Positions 17,353-27,646 of a stretch of DNA of 64,000 nucleotides are shown piece after piece (positions within the stretch are counted from its first letter, which is position 1; each line of letters begins with the position of its first letter). The notes beneath the pieces were generated by a model. The model was not told where the DNA came from, made no database searches, and saw only the letters and a program-made list of their open reading frames with translations. The DNA comes from Actinomarinicola tropica. Its GTDB lineage: Bacteria > Actinomycetota > Acidimicrobiia > Acidimicrobiales > SKKL01. Made by a program: the position numbers and the translations under genes. The stretch covers positions 3,313,001-3,377,000 of the forward strand of contig NZ_CP045851.1 of the NCBI RefSeq assembly GCF_009650215.1, written 5' to 3'.

Positions 17353-18912
17353 TCACGGCTGCCGGACAGTCTGGCCCGTGGGCCACACCTCGGGACGACC
17401 CTGGGCGCACCACACCGCGCCGGCGACGGCGGCGAACACCGCGTCGGACCCGTTCACCGCCGGCCCGTCGGATGCCTCGATCTCGACCTCGATCGGGGGC
17501 GTGTCGACGGCGCGCAGCACGCCGAACGACCGGATCGTCAGGTCGTGGATCGTGCCCTCGCCATCGACGACCAGCCCCTCCGAGGTGACCCAGCTGAGCG
17601 CCATGTGGGCGGCGCCGACGCAGTAGGACCGGAGGACGACGTCGTCGAGCACCTGGCCGCAGCGGACCCGCACGGCCAGCCGACCGTCGACCACCTCGGC
17701 CGATGCCACGGCGCCGTCCGGTGTCGTCACCTCCACCGGCCCGTCGGCCAGGGCCGCCCGCAGCGCCCACGCCTCGGCCCACCCCGCCGCGCGGAGGTCG
17801 ACGGACGTCGCGGGGCCGGCCACATCCACCTCCTCGACCTCGACGTCGGGCAGCACGGCGCGGATCCGCTCCGCGATGCCCGGCGTGCGCACCACGCGCA
17901 CGACGCCGGACCCGTCGGCCCGCACGCCGGCGGCGATCGGCGGGCGCTTGGGCCCCAACCGAACGGCGTCCTCCCGGGAGAGGTGGACGACGACGGGACG
18001 CCCGTGCTCGTCGGCCAGCTGGCGGGCGGCCGCTCGCACGAGGGAGTCGACCTTGCCGCCGAACGCCCCGCCGTTCGCCAGCGGCGACGCGGGCTCGCCG
18101 CCCGGCTCGCACCACGACGCGTCGGTCTCCAGGTAGGCGGGCTCGACCCACGACGTGCGCAGGGTGACGGCCCACTCCCCCGGCGGCAGCTCGAGCGGCG
18201 GCTCGGGCGTGACCGTGGTGCGCCGCCCCTGCACCTTCCCGGAGGCGGCTCGCGCCTCGCTCAGCGTCTCGCCCACCGCCCAGCCACCCTCCGGACGTGG
18301 GACCGCGACGAGGGCGCCGGCGGGTGCCGTGTCGGCGGCGAAACCCCCCGCGCCCACTGCCACGTCGGGCGCCACCCGCTGGGGCCCGTGGCCCTCGATC
18401 TCCGCACGGCGGGCCGCGTCGTCGAGGTCGCGCTCGTGGCGCAGGACGTCGGCGGCGACCGAGGGGCGCCCGGTGGCGACGTCCCATGCGTCGAGGATCG
18501 TGCGCCACCCGGTGCAGCGGCACAGGTGCGCCTGGAGCGCCCGCTCGACCTCCGGGACGCCGGCGTCGGGCTTCGCCCGGTGCAACCCATCGAGGCGGAC
18601 GATGATCCCCGGCGTGCAGAAGCCGCACTGGCTCCCGCCGGTGGCGCAGAACGCCTCGCCCCACCGCTCCCTCCGCTCGGCGTCCATCCCGTCGAGCGTG
18701 GTGATGGTCCGGCCCGTCACGCGCCGTGCGGGAGTCACGCAGGCGACGCGTGGCTGGCCGTCGACGAGGACGGTGCAGCAGCCGCACTGGCCCTGCGGCG
18801 AGCACCCGTCCTTCGGGCTGTGGATCCCCAGCCGGTCGCGCAGCACCTCGAGCAGCGACGCCCCGTCGTCGGGGACCTCCACCTGGCGGCCGTCGACCTC
18901 GAACTGGATCAT
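17353..18912 (-). CDS. Condensed xanthine dehydrogenase-like fusion: 2Fe-2S subunit joined to a shortened molybdenum-subunit region
   Basis: Residues 1-155 are a complete small subunit of the xanthine dehydrogenase family. Cys37, Cys43, Cys46 and Cys58 fit the plant-type 2Fe-2S cluster, and Cys96, Cys99, Cys131 and Cys133 (CGFCTPG and CRCTGW) fit the second cluster. The remaining 360 residues resemble pieces of the large subunit: GEWAVTLRTSWVEPAYLE, then NGGAFGGK near 280, REDAVRLGPKRPP, and a C-terminal PPIEVEIEASDGPAVNGSDA. A normal large subunit is about 750 residues, so most of the molybdopterin domain is missing. No separate Mo or FAD subunit is near. It may be an electron-transfer or noncatalytic member of the family. 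Confidence 0.75.
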   Translation of the reverse strand: MIQFEVDGRQVEVPDDGASLLEVLRDRLGIHSPKDGCSPQGQCGCCTVLVDGQPRVACVTPARRVTGRTITTLDGMDAERRERWGEAFCATGGSQCGFCTPGIIVRLDGLHRAKPDAGVPEVERALQAHLCRCTGWRTILDAWDVATGRPSVAADVLRHERDLDDAARRAEIEGHGPQRVAPDVAVGAGGFAADTAPAGALVAVPRPEGGWAVGETLSEARAASGKVQGRRTTVTPEPPLELPPGEWAVTLRTSWVEPAYLETDASWCEPGGEPASPLANGGAFGGKVDSLVRAAARQLADEHGRPVVVHLSREDAVRLGPKRPPIAAGVRADGSGVVRVVRTPGIAERIRAVLPDVEVEEVDVAGPATSVDLRAAGWAEAWALRAALADGPVEVTTPDGAVASAEVVDGRLAVRVRCGQVLDDVVLRSYCVGAAHMALSWVTSEGLVVDGEGTIHDLTIRSFGVLRAVDTPPIEVEIEASDGPAVNGSDAVFAAVAGAVWCAQGRPEVWPTGQTVRQP

Positions 18913-18919
18913 GCGCCCG

Positions 18920-18925
18920 ACCCTA
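18920..18925 (-). promoter_or_regulatory. -10 box TAGGGT (leaderless) for the xanthine dehydrogenase-like gene
   Basis: On the minus strand TAGGGT ends 7 bases before the ATG at 18912. This supports both the start choice and a leaderless transcript that probably continues into the RidA gene. Confidence 0.5.
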
Positions 18926-18986
18926 GGCCGGGCGCGGAAACGGCCGGGCACGAGGCCCGGCCGTCGGCGCTGGACAGATCAGTCGG

Positions 18987-19307
18987 TCAGCTGAAGGACT
19001 GGCCGCAGCCGCAGGTGCGCGACGCGTTCGGGTTGTTGATGGCGAACCCGGCGTCCTGGAGGCCGTCCTTGTAGTCGAGGGTGGCGCCGTTCAGGAGCTG
19101 GGCGCTGGACGGGTCGGAGACCACGCGGACACCGCCGAAGTCGACGGCGAGGTCGTCCTCGGCCACGTCGGTGTCGAAGAACATCTCGTAGCTGAAGCCC
19201 GAGCACCCGCCGGGGCGGACGGCGACGCGCAGCGCGAGGGCCGCGTCGCCTTCGGCGTCGATGAGCTGCTTGACCTTGTCGGCGGCGGAATCGGTGAGGG
19301 TGATCAA
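18987..19307 (-). CDS. Iron-sulfur cluster insertion protein (ErpA/IscA, HesB family)
   Basis: This A-type Fe-S carrier has 106 residues. It holds the three invariant Cys residues, one in RPGGCSGFSYEM and two in RTCGCGQSF. It delivers clusters to apoproteins in the cytoplasm. Translation probably begins at TTG (19307), because AGGAGG lies 9 bases before it and the result starts at the conserved ITLTDSAADKV; no ATG or GTG is suitably placed. The next genes upstream are a SufR-like Fe-S sensor and Mrp, so this is a small Fe-S homeostasis locus. Confidence 0.92.
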   Translation of the reverse strand: MITLTDSAADKVKQLIDAEGDAALALRVAVRPGGCSGFSYEMFFDTDVAEDDLAVDFGGVRVVSDPSSAQLLNGATLDYKDGLQDAGFAINNPNASRTCGCGQSFS

Positions 19308-19380
19308 CGGACTGATCCTCCTGGGAGAACGGGGCTGTGGTGATGGTATCGGTGGAACGGCATCCGGCGCACCCGTCGGC

Positions 19381-20145
19381 TCACGCCGGGGGACCGACGG
19401 CGACGGGGATCTCGACGAGGCAGGGCTCGCGATCGACGAGCGTGTGGAAGCTGACGGGGCAGGGGCCGTCGATCCCGGCGAGGAAGCCCTCGACCATCCC
19501 ACGGTGCAGGGCGCAGACGACCGACGGGTTGGACTCGGCCAGCTCGGCGAAGGGGCAGTGGGCGAACGCGATGGTGGCGACGCCGTCGTCGTCGTCGACG
19601 CCGGCCTCGATCGCCACCTCGGGGTCGAAGCCGAGCGCGTCGAGCTCGGTCATCAGGGCCTCGACCGGTGGTGCGCCGGCGGGCCACGGTCGAGCGTCGA
19701 GCTCCCCCTGGTCGCGTCCGGCGGCGGCGATGGTGTCGGGCTCGAGGCCGGCCTCGGCGGCGAGCCGGAGGAGCATGCGGGCGATCGTGGGGTACGGCGA
19801 CGGTTCGAGCCCGAGCGACGGCGCGTCGGCGGCGAGCGAATACAGGTGCTGGGGTCGCCCCACCCCGCGTCGGGACTCGCTGCGCACGTCGAGCAGGCCG
19901 ACCTCGCGCATGCGCTCCAGGTGCGGTCGGACGGTGTTGACGTGGAGGTCGAGCGACTCCGCGATCTGCGCCGTGGAGCGCGGCGCGGGCGACCGGGCGA
20001 GCTCGAGGTAGATCGCGTACCGGGTGTTGTCGCCGAGGGCCTTCAGGATCGCGAGGCGCGGCGAGCGGTCGCCGCTCCGAGGAGCGGTGGGCGGCAGGCC
20101 GCCATCGACGGTCGGACCGTCGACGCTGACAGGATCCTCCGACAC
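19381..20145 (-). CDS. SufR-like helix-turn-helix regulator with four-Cys C-terminal domain
   Basis: The protein has 254 residues. Residues about 30-100 form an ArsR/MarR-like winged helix (STAQIAESLDLHVNTVRPHL, then RRGVGRPQHLYSL). The C-terminal part has four Cys residues, starting HCPFAELAESNPSVVCALHR and spaced C-x13-C-x17-C-x12-C. This is close to the cluster-binding pattern of SufR, which represses suf genes when its Fe-S cluster is present. Neighbours are an A-type carrier gene and, divergently, mrp. The GTG at 20145 follows TAAACT after 8 bases, a leaderless arrangement. The targets are inferred from the neighbours. Confidence 0.85.
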   Translation of the reverse strand: MSEDPVSVDGPTVDGGLPPTAPRSGDRSPRLAILKALGDNTRYAIYLELARSPAPRSTAQIAESLDLHVNTVRPHLERMREVGLLDVRSESRRGVGRPQHLYSLAADAPSLGLEPSPYPTIARMLLRLAAEAGLEPDTIAAAGRDQGELDARPWPAGAPPVEALMTELDALGFDPEVAIEAGVDDDDGVATIAFAHCPFAELAESNPSVVCALHRGMVEGFLAGIDGPCPVSFHTLVDREPCLVEIPVAVGPPA

Positions 20146-20153
20146 GGACGACG

Positions 20154-20180
20154 AGTTTACACGGCGCTCTCCGGTAAAAT
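20154..20180. promoter_or_regulatory. Back-to-back leaderless promoters of the SufR-like and mrp genes
   Basis: The minus-strand -10 TAAACT (20159-20154) ends 8 bases before the regulator GTG, and the plus-strand -10 TAAAAT (20175-20180) ends 7 bases before the mrp GTG. TTTAC (20156-20160) and GTAAA (20174-20178) make a dyad with a 13-base spacer. The dyad follows from the two mirrored -10 boxes, but it would also let one regulator dimer cover both promoters. Confidence 0.6.
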
Positions 20181-20187
20181 CGGCCTC

Positions 20188-21405
20188 GTGCCTCCCACCA
20201 CCGGATCCGATGCGCCGCCGACGGTGGCGCCACCCACCCACGAGGACGTCGTCGGCGTCCTGCGCGGGGTCGTCGATCCGGAGCTCGGGTCCGACGTCGT
20301 CGACCTCGGCATGGCCAAGGACGTCGCCGTCGACGCCGACGGCACGGTGCGCGTGACCGTGGCGCTCACCACCGCCGGCTGCCCCCTCCGGGCCCAGCTC
20401 CAGCGCGACGTCCGCACCCGCGTCGGCTCGATGCCCGGCGTCACCGACGTCCGCATCGAGTGGACGGAGATGACCGCGGAGGAGAAGGCCACCGCGATGG
20501 ACCGGGCCCGCTGGAACGCCCGCGCCGACGCCCCCGACACGCTCATCCCCGCCACCACCCGCGTGGTGGCCGTCGCCTCCGGCAAGGGCGGGGTCGGCAA
20601 GTCGTCGGTCACCGTCAACCTCGCCGTGGCCGTCGCCGCCAGGGGCTACCGCGTCGGTGTCCTCGACGCCGACATCTGGGGCTTCTCCGTGCCCCGCATG
20701 CTCGGGCTCGAAGGACGCCTCGGCGGCGCCGGCGACGGGCCGACCCCCGAGGGCGAGCGCCCGAAGATCGCGCCGATCACCATGCCCGTCGGCGACGGGC
20801 AGCTCGAGGTCGTGTCGATGGGGTTCCTCGTCGACGCCGAGGAGACCGCCCTCATGTGGCGGGGGCTCATGCTCAACCGCGCCGTCCAGCACTTCGTCGA
20901 GGACGTCGCCTGGGGCGACCTCGACTACCTCTTCATCGACATGCCGCCGGGCACCGGCGACGTCGCCATGGGCCTCGCCCGGATGCTGCCGCGTGCCGAG
21001 ATGCTGGTGGTCACCACGCCCGCGCTCACAGCGCAGAAGGTCGCCATCCGCGCCGCCTCGATGGCCCGGCGCAGCCACCTGCGGGTCGCCGGCGTGATCG
21101 AGAACATGAGCGCGTTCGTCTGCGACCACGGCGAGAGCTACCCGCTGTTCGGGTCCGGCGGCGGCGAGCTGCTCGCCCGTGACGCCGGCGTGCCGCTGCT
21201 CGGCCAGATCCCGCTCGAGCCGTCCGTCGCCGACGGTGGCGACAACGGGCGACCGATCGCGCTCGGTGAGGGCCCCGCCGCCGACGCGTTCCGCGACCTG
21301 GCCGCCCAGGTCGTCGAGGAGGCGATCCCTCCGGTCGAGATGGCCGGCTGCAGCGCCCGCATGCTCGACGCCGCCGTCTCGGCGCTCGACGACCTCGACC
21401 TCTAG
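20188..21405 (+). CDS. mrp: Mrp/NBP35-type Fe-S cluster carrier ATPase
   Basis: The 405-residue protein has an N-terminal MIP18/SufT-like domain (about residues 17-95: VLRGVVDPELGSDVVDLGM, then TTAGCPLRAQL). It is followed by a P-loop ATPase with the deviant Walker A ASGKGGVGKSSVTVNLA, then DADIWGFSVPRM and DYLFIDMPPGTGD. ApbC/Mrp proteins bind and hand over Fe-S clusters. The CxxC motif of many Mrp proteins is reduced to a single Cys (VCDHGESYPLFG), as in various actinobacterial relatives. The start is GTG with a leaderless promoter. It is divergent from the SufR-like gene and upstream of the riboswitch. Confidence 0.93.
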   Translation: MPPTTGSDAPPTVAPPTHEDVVGVLRGVVDPELGSDVVDLGMAKDVAVDADGTVRVTVALTTAGCPLRAQLQRDVRTRVGSMPGVTDVRIEWTEMTAEEKATAMDRARWNARADAPDTLIPATTRVVAVASGKGGVGKSSVTVNLAVAVAARGYRVGVLDADIWGFSVPRMLGLEGRLGGAGDGPTPEGERPKIAPITMPVGDGQLEVVSMGFLVDAEETALMWRGLMLNRAVQHFVEDVAWGDLDYLFIDMPPGTGDVAMGLARMLPRAEMLVVTTPALTAQKVAIRAASMARRSHLRVAGVIENMSAFVCDHGESYPLFGSGGGELLARDAGVPLLGQIPLEPSVADGGDNGRPIALGEGPAADAFRDLAAQVVEEAIPPVEMAGCSARMLDAAVSALDDLDL

Positions 21406-21414
21406 GAGCGCCGG

Positions 21415-21420
21415 TAGCCT
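21415..21420 (+). promoter_or_regulatory. -10 box TAGCCT for the guanidine riboswitch transcript
   Basis: TAGCCT lies 10 bases after the mrp stop and about 29 bases before the riboswitch P1 helix, placing transcription start near 21427. The -35 region would fall in the end of mrp and was not recognisable. Confidence 0.4.
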
Positions 21421-21448
21421 GGGCCCCGCTCGGCCGGTCGGCGGCCGG

Positions 21449-21488
21449 GGCCGACGAGGGTGTCCCGTACCGGCTGCGCAAAGACGGG
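21449..21488 (+). ncRNA. Guanidine-III riboswitch (ykkC-III class)
   Basis: The 40 bases upstream of the Gdx gene fit the pseudoknotted guanidine-III fold. P1 pairs GGCCG (21449-21453) with CGGCT (21471-21475). P2, the pseudoknot, pairs CCCGT (21464-21468) with ACGGG (21484-21488). The conserved ACGAGG follows the first P1 strand and CAAAGACGG precedes and forms the last strand, as in the class consensus recalled from the Thermobifida fusca example. The AGGAGG ribosome site begins four bases later (21492), so folding could control access to it. The gene downstream is of the guanidinium exporter type, which strengthens the call. Confidence 0.87.
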
Positions 21489-21502
21489 CTCAGGAGGATG
21501 TC

Positions 21503-21823
21503 GTGTCCTGGTTCGTTCTCGTCGTCGCGGGTCTGCTCGAGGTCGGCTGGGCGGCGATGCTGCCCCAGACCGAGGGGCTGACGCGCCTCGGCCCCACCGC
21601 CGGCTTCGTCGCCCTCCTGGCGGCCAGCATGTTCGGCCTCGCCAAGGCCACCGAGACGATCCCGCTCGGCACGGCCTACGCCGTGTGGGTCGGGATCGGA
21701 GCCGCCGGCACCACCCTCGTCGGCATCGTCGTCCACGACGACCCGGCGGGGGCGGCGCAGCTCGGCTTCCTGGCGCTGCTCGTCGTCTCGATCGTCGGGC
21801 TGAAGGTGGCCAGCAGCGCCTGA
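21503..21823 (+). CDS. gdx: Guanidinium exporter, small multidrug resistance family (Gdx/SugE)
   Basis: This four-helix SMR protein of 106 residues works as an antiparallel homodimer exchanging guanidinium for protons. The essential Glu is in VVAGLLEVGWAAML, and the Gdx-subtype segment PLGTAYAVWVGIGAAGT and the closing VVSIVGLKVAS are clear. The Gdx subtype, as opposed to the drug exporter EmrE subtype, typically sits behind guanidine riboswitches, as here. The start is GTG at 21503 with AGGAGG five bases upstream. The gene is followed immediately by a convergent metallo-beta-lactamase-like gene. Confidence 0.93.
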   Translation: MSWFVLVVAGLLEVGWAAMLPQTEGLTRLGPTAGFVALLAASMFGLAKATETIPLGTAYAVWVGIGAAGTTLVGIVVHDDPAGAAQLGFLALLVVSIVGLKVASSA

Positions 21824-21832
21824 CGGCGACGG

Positions 21833-22456
21833 TCAGCCGCCGGCGGCCGCGGCGATCTCGTCGATGCGGGACTGCGGGTCCTCGATGAGGTGGCCCGCCG
21901 CCGGCGCGATGCCCCGCAGGCGGCGGCGCCGCAGCGAGGTCACCATGGCGACGTAGGCGTCGGCGTCGACGACCTCCGGTGCCGGGTCGACCTCCAGGTA
22001 GTCGCCGGCGAAGACGACCCGCTCCTCCTCGAGGAAGAAGCAGGCTCGCGGCGCGGCGACGCCGGGCGCGTCGAGGACGGTGAGGCGGAACTCGGTGCCG
22101 AGGATCGTGTCGCCGGGCGCGAGCGTGGCCGTCGCGCCCTCTGCGCCGACGCCGTCGACCGCCATCAGCTCGGCGCCGGTGGCCGCAGCCAGGGCCGCCG
22201 CTCCGCTCGAGTCGACCGCACCGGTGCAGACGATCCAGCGCACGCGGTCGCCGCCGCACCCGGCGACGGCGTCGCGGTGGTCGGCGACGTCGGGGCCGGG
22301 ATCGATCACGACGATCTCGTCGATGCCCACGAGGTAGGTGTTGGCCCCGGCCTCGCCACCGACGTCGAGCGCGATGCGACGCACCAGCGGGCTGAGCGCT
22401 CGCGCCACCCCCGGCACGATCGGCGGTGGGACGTCGTCGATCTCTTCGTCGGTCAT
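21833..22456 (-). CDS. Metallo-beta-lactamase fold protein lacking the metal-binding HxHxDH motif
   Basis: The protein has 207 residues and the strand order of an MBL-fold hydrolase: GGEAGANTYLVG, IVVIDPGPDVADH, an FLEEERVVFAGDYLE strand and a late APAAGHLIEDP. The metal-binding segment that should read THxHxDH is WIVCTGAVDSSGAAAL, so at least the first two His are gone and hydrolase activity is unlikely. Only the later His in AGHLI and some Asp residues remain. It overlaps the NUDIX gene stop (ATGA), and the two probably form one transcript with fxsA. An MBL gene also neighbours ArsA-like genes in mycobacteria, where the motif is normally intact. Confidence 0.75.
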   Translation of the reverse strand: MTDEEIDDVPPPIVPGVARALSPLVRRIALDVGGEAGANTYLVGIDEIVVIDPGPDVADHRDAVAGCGGDRVRWIVCTGAVDSSGAAALAAATGAELMAVDGVGAEGATATLAPGDTILGTEFRLTVLDAPGVAAPRACFFLEEERVVFAGDYLEVDPAPEVVDADAYVAMVTSLRRRRLRGIAPAAGHLIEDPQSRIDEIAAAAGG

Positions 22457-25571: not shown

Positions 25572-26564
25572 GTGGATCCTGCCCGGTTCTTCGCAGCATC
25601 TCGGCTCGCCATCGTTGCCGGGAAGGGCGGCGTCGGCAAAACGACCGTCAGCGCTGCGCTGGCGCGAGCCGCGGCTCGCGTCGGGCGACCCAGCCTCGTC
25701 GTCGAGGTGGAGGGCAAGAGCGGGCTCGCCACGGCCTTCGAACGACCCGAGCTGTCGTACGAGCCGAGCGAGATGTGGCCCCGCGGGGACCCGCCCGGCG
25801 CCGCTGCCGTGGACGCCCGTGCGCTCACCGCCGACGACGCGCTGCTCGAGTACCTCGCCGACCACGGGCTCGACCGCGTGTCCCGGCGTCTGGTGCGCAG
25901 CGGGGCGCTCGACGTCGTGGCCACCGCCGCGCCGGGCATCGAGGACATCCTGCTGCTCGGGAAGGTGAAGCAGATCGAGCGGGCGGAGTCCGAGCGCCTC
26001 GTCGTGCTCGACACGCCGGCGGCGGGCCACGCCGTGACCTTCCTCCGCTCGGCGCGGGGGTTGCTCGACGCCGTGAGCGCCGGACCGATCCGTGCCCAGG
26101 CCAGCGACGTCCTGGAGATGCTGACCGACCCCGCCCGCACACGGGTCCTCCTCGTGACGATCCCCGAGGAGACCCCGATCAACGAGCTCATCGAGACCGC
26201 CTACCGCCTCGAGGACGAGGTCGGGATCGCCCTCGGTCCGATCATCGTCAACGGCGTCGCACCCGAGCCGCCGTCGCTCCCGACCGATGCCCGCGCTGCG
26301 GCCGCTGCGGCCGGTGTCGAGCTCACCGAGGAGGAGGCCGACGCGCTCGACGCTGCCGCGTCGTTCCGGCACGAGCGCGCCGAGCTGCAGCGCGCCCAGC
26401 TCGCGCACCTCGGACGTGCGCTGCCGCTCCCGCAGATCCACCTGCCTGCCGCGTCGGCGGTCGAGCTCGGCCGCGGCGAGATCGACCGGTTGGCGCGCGC
26501 TCTCGTGGACGGGGTCGCCGCGCTCGCCGACACCGAGGTGACCGCCGGGGAGCGCGGGCAGTGA
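25572..26564 (+). CDS. ArsA/Get3-like ATPase, first of a tandem pair
   Basis: The protein has 330 residues. A deviant Walker A motif GKGGVGKTT with signature Lys lies at residues 17-25. Further family elements are SLVVEVEGKSG, the switch-like LVVLDTPAAGHAVTFLRS and PEETPINELIETA. Two adjacent ArsA-like genes occur in mycobacteria (Rv3679-Rv3680 type), where they form a Get3-like complex rather than an arsenite pump; no arsB or arsR lies here. The start is GTG behind GGGGAG. The stop overlaps the GTG of the partner gene (GTGA). Confidence 0.9.
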   Translation: MDPARFFAASRLAIVAGKGGVGKTTVSAALARAAARVGRPSLVVEVEGKSGLATAFERPELSYEPSEMWPRGDPPGAAAVDARALTADDALLEYLADHGLDRVSRRLVRSGALDVVATAAPGIEDILLLGKVKQIERAESERLVVLDTPAAGHAVTFLRSARGLLDAVSAGPIRAQASDVLEMLTDPARTRVLLVTIPEETPINELIETAYRLEDEVGIALGPIIVNGVAPEPPSLPTDARAAAAAAGVELTEEEADALDAAASFRHERAELQRAQLAHLGRALPLPQIHLPAASAVELGRGEIDRLARALVDGVAALADTEVTAGERGQ

Positions 26565-27646
26565 GCGGCACGACGTTCGCCGACGTCCTCGCCGGGGCCT
26601 CGGTGCTCATCTCCGCCGGCTCCGGGGGCGTGGGGAAGACGACGACCTCGGCGGCGATCGGCGTGGCCGCCGCACGGGAGGGCCGACGGGTCGTCGTCGT
26701 CACCATCGACCCGGCACGGCGGCTGGCCGACGCGCTCGGCATCGGTGGCGACGGCCTCGGCAACGAGCCGCAGCGGATCGACGGGCCGTGGTCGGGCGAG
26801 CTCTGGGCCGCCATGCTCGACACCCGCGCCACCTTCGACGACCTCGTCGCTCGCCACGCCGACCCCGACCAGGCCGAGGAGATCCTCGCCAACCGCTTCT
26901 ACCGCAACATCGCCGACTCGCTGTCGGGCACGCAGGAGTACATGGCGGCCGAGAAGCTGCACGCCCTCCACGTCGACCCCCGGTTCGACCTCGTCGTCGT
27001 CGACACCCCGCCGACGCGCAACGCCTTCGACTTCATCGAGGCCCCCCACACGCTCACCCGCTTCCTCGACCACCGGCTGTACCGGCTGCTGATGGCGCCG
27101 ACCAGCCGCGTCGGCCGCGCCGTCGGCGTGGCGACCTCCGCGTTCGTCCGGACGGTCTCGCGGGTCGTCGGCGCGGCCGTCGTCGAGGACGCCATCGGCT
27201 TCTTCCGCGCCTTCGAGGGCCTCGAGGACGGCTTCCGCCAGCGCGCCGCCGAGGTCGCCGACCTGTTCCGGGACGAGACCACGGCCTTCGTCCTCGTGAC
27301 GTCCTCGCGCCGCGAGTCGCTCGACGAGGCCGGTTGGTTCGCCGATCAGCTGGGCGGCCGCGGCATCGACGTCGCCGCCCTCGTCGTCAACCGCGTCCAG
27401 CCCCGTCCGGTCGAGGGATCGGTCGACCGCTACCGCGAGCTGACCCGCGACCATCCGGGCACCGACCTCGCGCGGCTCGCGGAGGTGCTCGTCGACCAGT
27501 GCGAGACGGCCGACGTGGAACGCAGTCGCCTGGCCACGCTCGCCCCCACGCTCCGCGAGGCACCGCTCGTGCTGGTGCCGATGCTCGGCACCGACGTGCA
27601 CGACCTCGACGGGCTCGTCGCGGTGGCTGACCTCGTCGTCGGCTGA
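26561..27646 (+). CDS. ArsA/Get3-like ATPase, second of a tandem pair
   Basis: The 361-residue protein has the P-loop GSGGVGKTTTSAAIG (residues 20-34), in which the signature Lys of the deviant Walker A motif is replaced by Ser21, while the first gene product keeps it. In ArsA/Get3 dimers the signature Lys acts across the interface, so the two proteins may form a heterodimer with asymmetric sites. Other motifs are VVVTIDPARRLADALG, LVVVDTPPTRNAFDF and a hydrophobic middle part. The start overlaps the stop of the first gene, so coupled translation and equal amounts are likely. Confidence 0.9.
   Translation: MSGTTFADVLAGASVLISAGSGGVGKTTTSAAIGVAAAREGRRVVVVTIDPARRLADALGIGGDGLGNEPQRIDGPWSGELWAAMLDTRATFDDLVARHADPDQAEEILANRFYRNIADSLSGTQEYMAAEKLHALHVDPRFDLVVVDTPPTRNAFDFIEAPHTLTRFLDHRLYRLLMAPTSRVGRAVGVATSAFVRTVSRVVGAAVVEDAIGFFRAFEGLEDGFRQRAAEVADLFRDETTAFVLVTSSRRESLDEAGWFADQLGGRGIDVAALVVNRVQPRPVEGSVDRYRELTRDHPGTDLARLAEVLVDQCETADVERSRLATLAPTLREAPLVLVPMLGTDVHDLDGLVAVADLVVG

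Follow-up and report, generated by a model that had tools for sequence, protein, structure and literature searches.

The gdx locus and its leader

Within the window (the whole stretch of 64,000 nucleotides analysed), a gene for a Gdx-type exporter of the SMR family follows a same-strand Mrp-type ATPase gene, whose stop codon lies at 21405, and faces a convergent gene for a metallo-beta-lactamase-fold protein that ends at 21833, an arrangement that makes the exporter gene probably monocistronic. The guanidine-III riboswitch is a known class of RNA sensor for toxic guanidine, and the first-pass annotation had read its elements from the exporter's leader by eye, namely the helix P1, the pseudoknot helix P2 and the motifs ACGAGG and CAAAGACGG, with AGGAGG and the SMR gene directly 3' of them; all are found where it placed them (Table 1). 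P1 has five pairs, four of them Watson-Crick and the terminal one G-U. The one element that holds in part is CAAAGACGG, which is present here but varies as a class motif, relatives having GACAAGACGG, GCACGACGG or GAACGACGG, with A-G-ACG as the invariant core of this strand. A second species of the genus also has a hairpin at the position of P0, although of other sequence.

Table 1. Features of the leader and exporter gene, in window coordinates
Feature	Position	Strand	Partner or basis
Candidate -10 element, TAGCCT	21415-21420	+	Suggested by TANNNT enrichment in leaders
5' hairpin P0 (GGCCG-GUCGG-CGGCC)	21432-21446	+	Optional hairpin of the Rfam model, aligned to its first helix
Guanidine-III aptamer core (pseudoknot), very probable	21449-21488	+	RF01763, R1, invariant columns
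P1, 5' strand GGCCG	21449-21453	+	21471-21475
ACGAGG	21454-21459	+	Read from sequence
P2 (pseudoknot), 5' strand CCCGU	21464-21468	+	21484-21488; 5 pairs
P1, 3' strand CGGCU	21471-21475	+	21449-21453
CAAAGACGG	21479-21487	+	Read from sequence
P2, 3' strand ACGGG	21484-21488	+	Ends 3 nt 5' of Shine-Dalgarno
Shine-Dalgarno AGGAGG	21492-21497	+	Sequence; GTG 5 nt 3'
Gdx-type SMR exporter gene (106 aa, GTG start)	21503-21823	+	PF00893, Gdx-Clo alignment

The exporter (P0001) matches PF00893 at 85 bits (cut-off 23.7), which places it in the SMR family, and it is the sole PF00893 protein found in the genome. Residues E13, W16, S42, Y59 and W62 are all in place, of which W16 separates the two subtypes, being conserved in Gdx and Gly or Ala in Qac types (PMC7695847); together with the alignment to Gdx-Clo described below, these residues bear out the initial reading of the gene as Gdx-type. 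We use this label rather than that of a SugE equivalog since the NCBIfam SugE model, the top-scoring NCBIfam model for the protein, gives 95 bits against an equivalog cut-off of 126. No relative of the protein was found in the viral contigs searched, and the genome yielded no full-length urea/guanidine carboxylase, the matches being stretches of biotin-carboxylase and biotinyl domains.

The genes around gdx offer some observations of their own. The upstream ATPase (19261-21405, plus strand) is of the Mrp/NUBPL type with a FeS_assembly_P domain and is divergent from an IscA-type Fe-S protein and an ArsR/HTH_20-type regulator (18987-20127, minus strand), a compact Fe-S assembly neighbourhood that adjoins gdx. 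Further upstream, in a minus-strand frame (17353-18951), a small subunit of the [2Fe-2S] xanthine-dehydrogenase type (Fer2, Fer2_2) is joined to a region whose one molybdopterin-binding match is weak, and the frame looks like a remnant or an unusual fusion of a molybdenum hydroxylase. Downstream, at 25572-27646 (plus strand), two ATPase genes stand in succession, the first ArsA-type by Pfam and the second apparently similar, by sequence only.

Covariance models and covariation

The Rfam family model, RF01763, scores the site at 24.6 bits over 21427-21492, below its gathering cut-off of 36, and when the whole window was searched with Rfam at gathering score a tRNA alone was reported; this cut-off is a database threshold and does not itself measure a structural feature. 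An independent covariance model, R1, was built from 35 motif-bearing leaders of SMR genes in Acidimicrobiia, other actinobacteria, myxobacteria and other phyla, the loci being gathered via the protein alone and the window and its genus-mate being excluded from the training set. As the leaders were picked by motif and gene context, R1 describes guanidine-III-like leaders by construction. This model, blind to the window's site though built on such leaders, scores it at 40.1 bits (E 5.3e-6) over 21444-21502, which is rank 1 in the 3.7-Mb genome, the runner-up reaching 24.6 bits, some 15.5 bits lower. A covariance-model score below threshold had been named beforehand as grounds for rejecting the aptamer, and taken literally the Rfam score gives those grounds, whereas R1 supports the site; the Rfam threshold wrongly rejects it because the RF01763 cut-off misses the acidimicrobial subtype to which it belongs.

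That the leader is a chance resemblance in GC-rich sequence, and no riboswitch, might be argued from the sub-threshold Rfam score and from genome position 1683996, which at 26.8 bits outscores the site under RF01763 yet lacks the motif set and a guanidine gene, but this position is missing from the R1 matches at E up to 10, R1 puts the site well clear of every other, and the leader is kept before Gdx in many families and within the genus, where the second species (L001) has the same core before this gene in another neighbourhood, all of which leaves chance a very small probability. By minimum free energy the leader does not fold more stably than its shuffles (z 0.02), under a folding model that does not include the pseudoknot, and searches of the genome for guanidine-I and guanidine-II riboswitches found none.

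Both P1 and P2 covary across phyla, with compensatory changes among members, and the covarying columns form crossed helices, as is needed for a pseudoknot. The covariation score of alignment A1 is 0.204, against 0.053 (sd 0.012) after shuffling and at most 0.093 when the partners are slid. The inner pair of P1 is GC in 22 leaders of A1, CG in 10 and UA in 3; at pair 21452-21472 the window has C-G, classical leaders have G-C and a third group has U-A, with pairing kept in 39 of 39 leaders. The outermost pair of P2 is C-G here and G-C in classical members. Counts for P2 are to be taken from A1, since the 39-leader tabulation assigned the P2 3' strand by best pairing and misplaced it in L025, L027, L080 and L133. 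The site also matches every one of the 18 columns invariant among the 35 independent leaders. The published description of the guanidine-III pocket features C6-G7, flanked by A, and G17 (PMC7736828), and the pocket nucleotides kept in the window, the CG dimer within ACGA and the G of CCGUACC, fit this arrangement.

An Acidimicrobiia form of the aptamer

The full motif was found in 17 loci of Acidimicrobiia, with a Gdx-type gene downstream in 16 of them, and it precedes Gdx genes in 15 Acidimicrobiia loci besides the window's and in other phyla. Only three of the 17 reach 36 bits under RF01763, and in each of these the second P1 pair is the classical G-C and the pattern is CCGG-ACGAGG ... CCGUACC-CGG. 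The remaining 14, of which the window is a member, have the pattern CCG-ACGAGG ... CCGUACC-GG and score between 20.5 and 32.2 bits; this poor scoring of the flipped-P1 form under the family model was noted across L001, L139, L142-L148, L150, L176-L178 and L180. Six further loci (L149, L151, L152, L179, L181 and L183) were set aside as weak R1 matches with an incomplete motif or a position inside coding sequence. As the Rfam cut-off misses 14 of the 17 loci, the published count of the class, which is described as mainly actinobacterial and as controlling translation and mRNA stability (PMC12186494), is probably too low.

The exception among the 17 is L170 (G225:C113, 4476-5618, minus strand; G225 belongs to the window's order), where a full guanidine-III motif, scored by R1 at 34.3 bits, stands before a Rieske oxygenase gene, with a TTAGAGT box and AGGA upstream of its GTG start. 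The encoded protein has Ring_hydroxyl_A and Rieske domains and its nearest PDB entry is carnitine monooxygenase, which suggests an enzyme like the carnitine/glycine-betaine monooxygenases. It is a single case, no close homologue being found in 38 other genomes of G225's family; a Rieske protein has also been noted near a guanidinase cluster in marine Synechococcus (PMC10119275). Tentatively, and with the balance somewhat against it, the acidimicrobial leaders may form a coherent subtype, defined by the flipped P1 pair, a CCCGU/ACGGG P2 and a short variable strand and largely missed by Rfam, at least one member of which would control a Rieske oxygenase of guanidine or N-alkylguanidine metabolism. 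Were this so, the metabolism of these compounds would include an enzyme absent from the literature searched. A corrected guanidine-III model could reveal more guanidine-related genes of the oxygenase's kind.

The same features could be read as a ykkC-III-like aptamer of altered specificity in Acidimicrobiia, one that recognizes a substituted guanidine or another cation and is matched by its SMR exporter, given the flipped P1 pair, the different P2 and loop, the Rieske oxygenase gene behind one relative's motif and the transport of substituted guanidinyl compounds by Gdx-Clo (PMC7695847). Against this, every invariant pocket nucleotide is retained, the flipped pair is no more than compensatory, and flipped and classical forms alike precede Gdx-type genes, so a shift in ligand appears very improbable. 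For the window we favour an aptamer that would bind guanidine itself: the interval 21449-21488 is very probably an aptamer of the guanidine-III (ykkC-III) class within the 5' leader of gdx, itself probably a monocistronic gene, and this reading explains the locus best as a whole. An aptamer ahead of a Gdx-type gene is supported by its predicted structure, covariation and invariant nucleotides, by gene context in relatives and by the Gdx residues of the protein. The pairing of sensor with exporter is firm, and from it we infer that the organism meets and exports guanidine.

A proposed path from guanidine binding to exporter production

The leader would be transcribed from its own promoter just past the mrp stop codon. 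Of 39 guanidine-III leaders, 22 have a TANNNT box 30-48 nt 5' of ACGA where shuffling predicts 2.8, and none of 1000 mononucleotide shuffles reached 22; since 21415 is the first base of such a -10-like box at the locus, the RNA probably starts at about 21427. The span first annotated, from 21415, thus contains all the elements but probably begins upstream of the RNA itself. No canonical -35 element was seen at the locus, and a generic consensus promoter scan gave no match there. A 9-bp anti-Shine-Dalgarno stem between CCTGGGCCC (21418-21426) and GGGCTCAGG (21486-21494) was considered and rejected: it shares bases with the -10 box and probably lies outside the transcript. No intrinsic terminator was found at the locus, and there is accordingly no sign of a transcriptional switch.

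In the class, bound guanidine stabilizes the pseudoknot, makes the Shine-Dalgarno sequence easier to reach and protects the transcript against RNase E (PMC12186494). The anatomy of the window's leader agrees with this mechanism because only 3 nt separate the end of P2 from the Shine-Dalgarno sequence, and locking P2 should thus raise exporter production. By analogy, guanidinium would settle in the conserved ACGAGG/CCGUACC pocket of this copy and lock the P1/P2 pseudoknot; the aptamer would act as an ON switch, with translation initiation favoured, the mRNA shielded from RNase E, or both; and Gdx would then expel guanidinium in exchange for protons. In the guanidine-free OFF state, 21483-21489 could possibly pair with 21511-21517 and 21491-21495 with 21506-21510, a 12-bp alternative predicted by folding that engages the P2 3' strand and the Shine-Dalgarno sequence with codons 2-5, and that is peculiar to this leader and unconserved.

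Which of the two steps dominates is a closer matter. The aptamer may owe its effect chiefly to protection of the mRNA against RNase E and less to freeing of the Shine-Dalgarno sequence. Such protection has been reported for guanidine-III riboswitches (Richards and Belasco, cited in PMC12186494), and the fold model points the same way in finding no conserved sequestration of the Shine-Dalgarno sequence among relatives: of 28 leaders, locking the aptamer makes this sequence less accessible in 19 and more so in 4, so the translational step draws no computed support from this model. The 12-bp sequestering alternative in the window's own leader argues for the translational route, and we judge protection as the main route to be a credible reading, if a little short of an even one. 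By either route the switch would turn exporter production on.

The site adds one more example of a known pairing of sensor with exporter, here in a lineage-specific form missed by the standard Rfam search: an ordinary but solid case in a little-studied actinobacterial class. It shares with the RF01763 class P1, the pseudoknot P2, ACGAGG and CCGUACC, the A-G-ACG strand, the optional 5' hairpin and a position directly before an SMR gene, but differs in having C-G rather than G-C as the second P1 pair and the outermost P2 pair, and GCGCAAAG as the strand joining P1 to P2 where the class has a GACAAG-type strand. The exporter's sequence aligns along its whole length with Gdx-Clo (6wk5, E 1.2e-22; structures 6WK5, 6WK8 and 6WK9), with which it is colinear over residues 2-105 and shares the five Gdx residues at identical positions, whereas LPQT follows TM1 in place of the LKYS of Gdx-Clo and the SugE score lies below the NCBIfam cut-off. 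With EmrE and the Qac subtype it has in common the fold and the catalytic Glu in TM1, but its match to EmrE (E about 6e-8) is some 15 orders of magnitude weaker than that to Gdx-Clo, and it keeps Trp at position 16 where Qac types have Gly or Ala.
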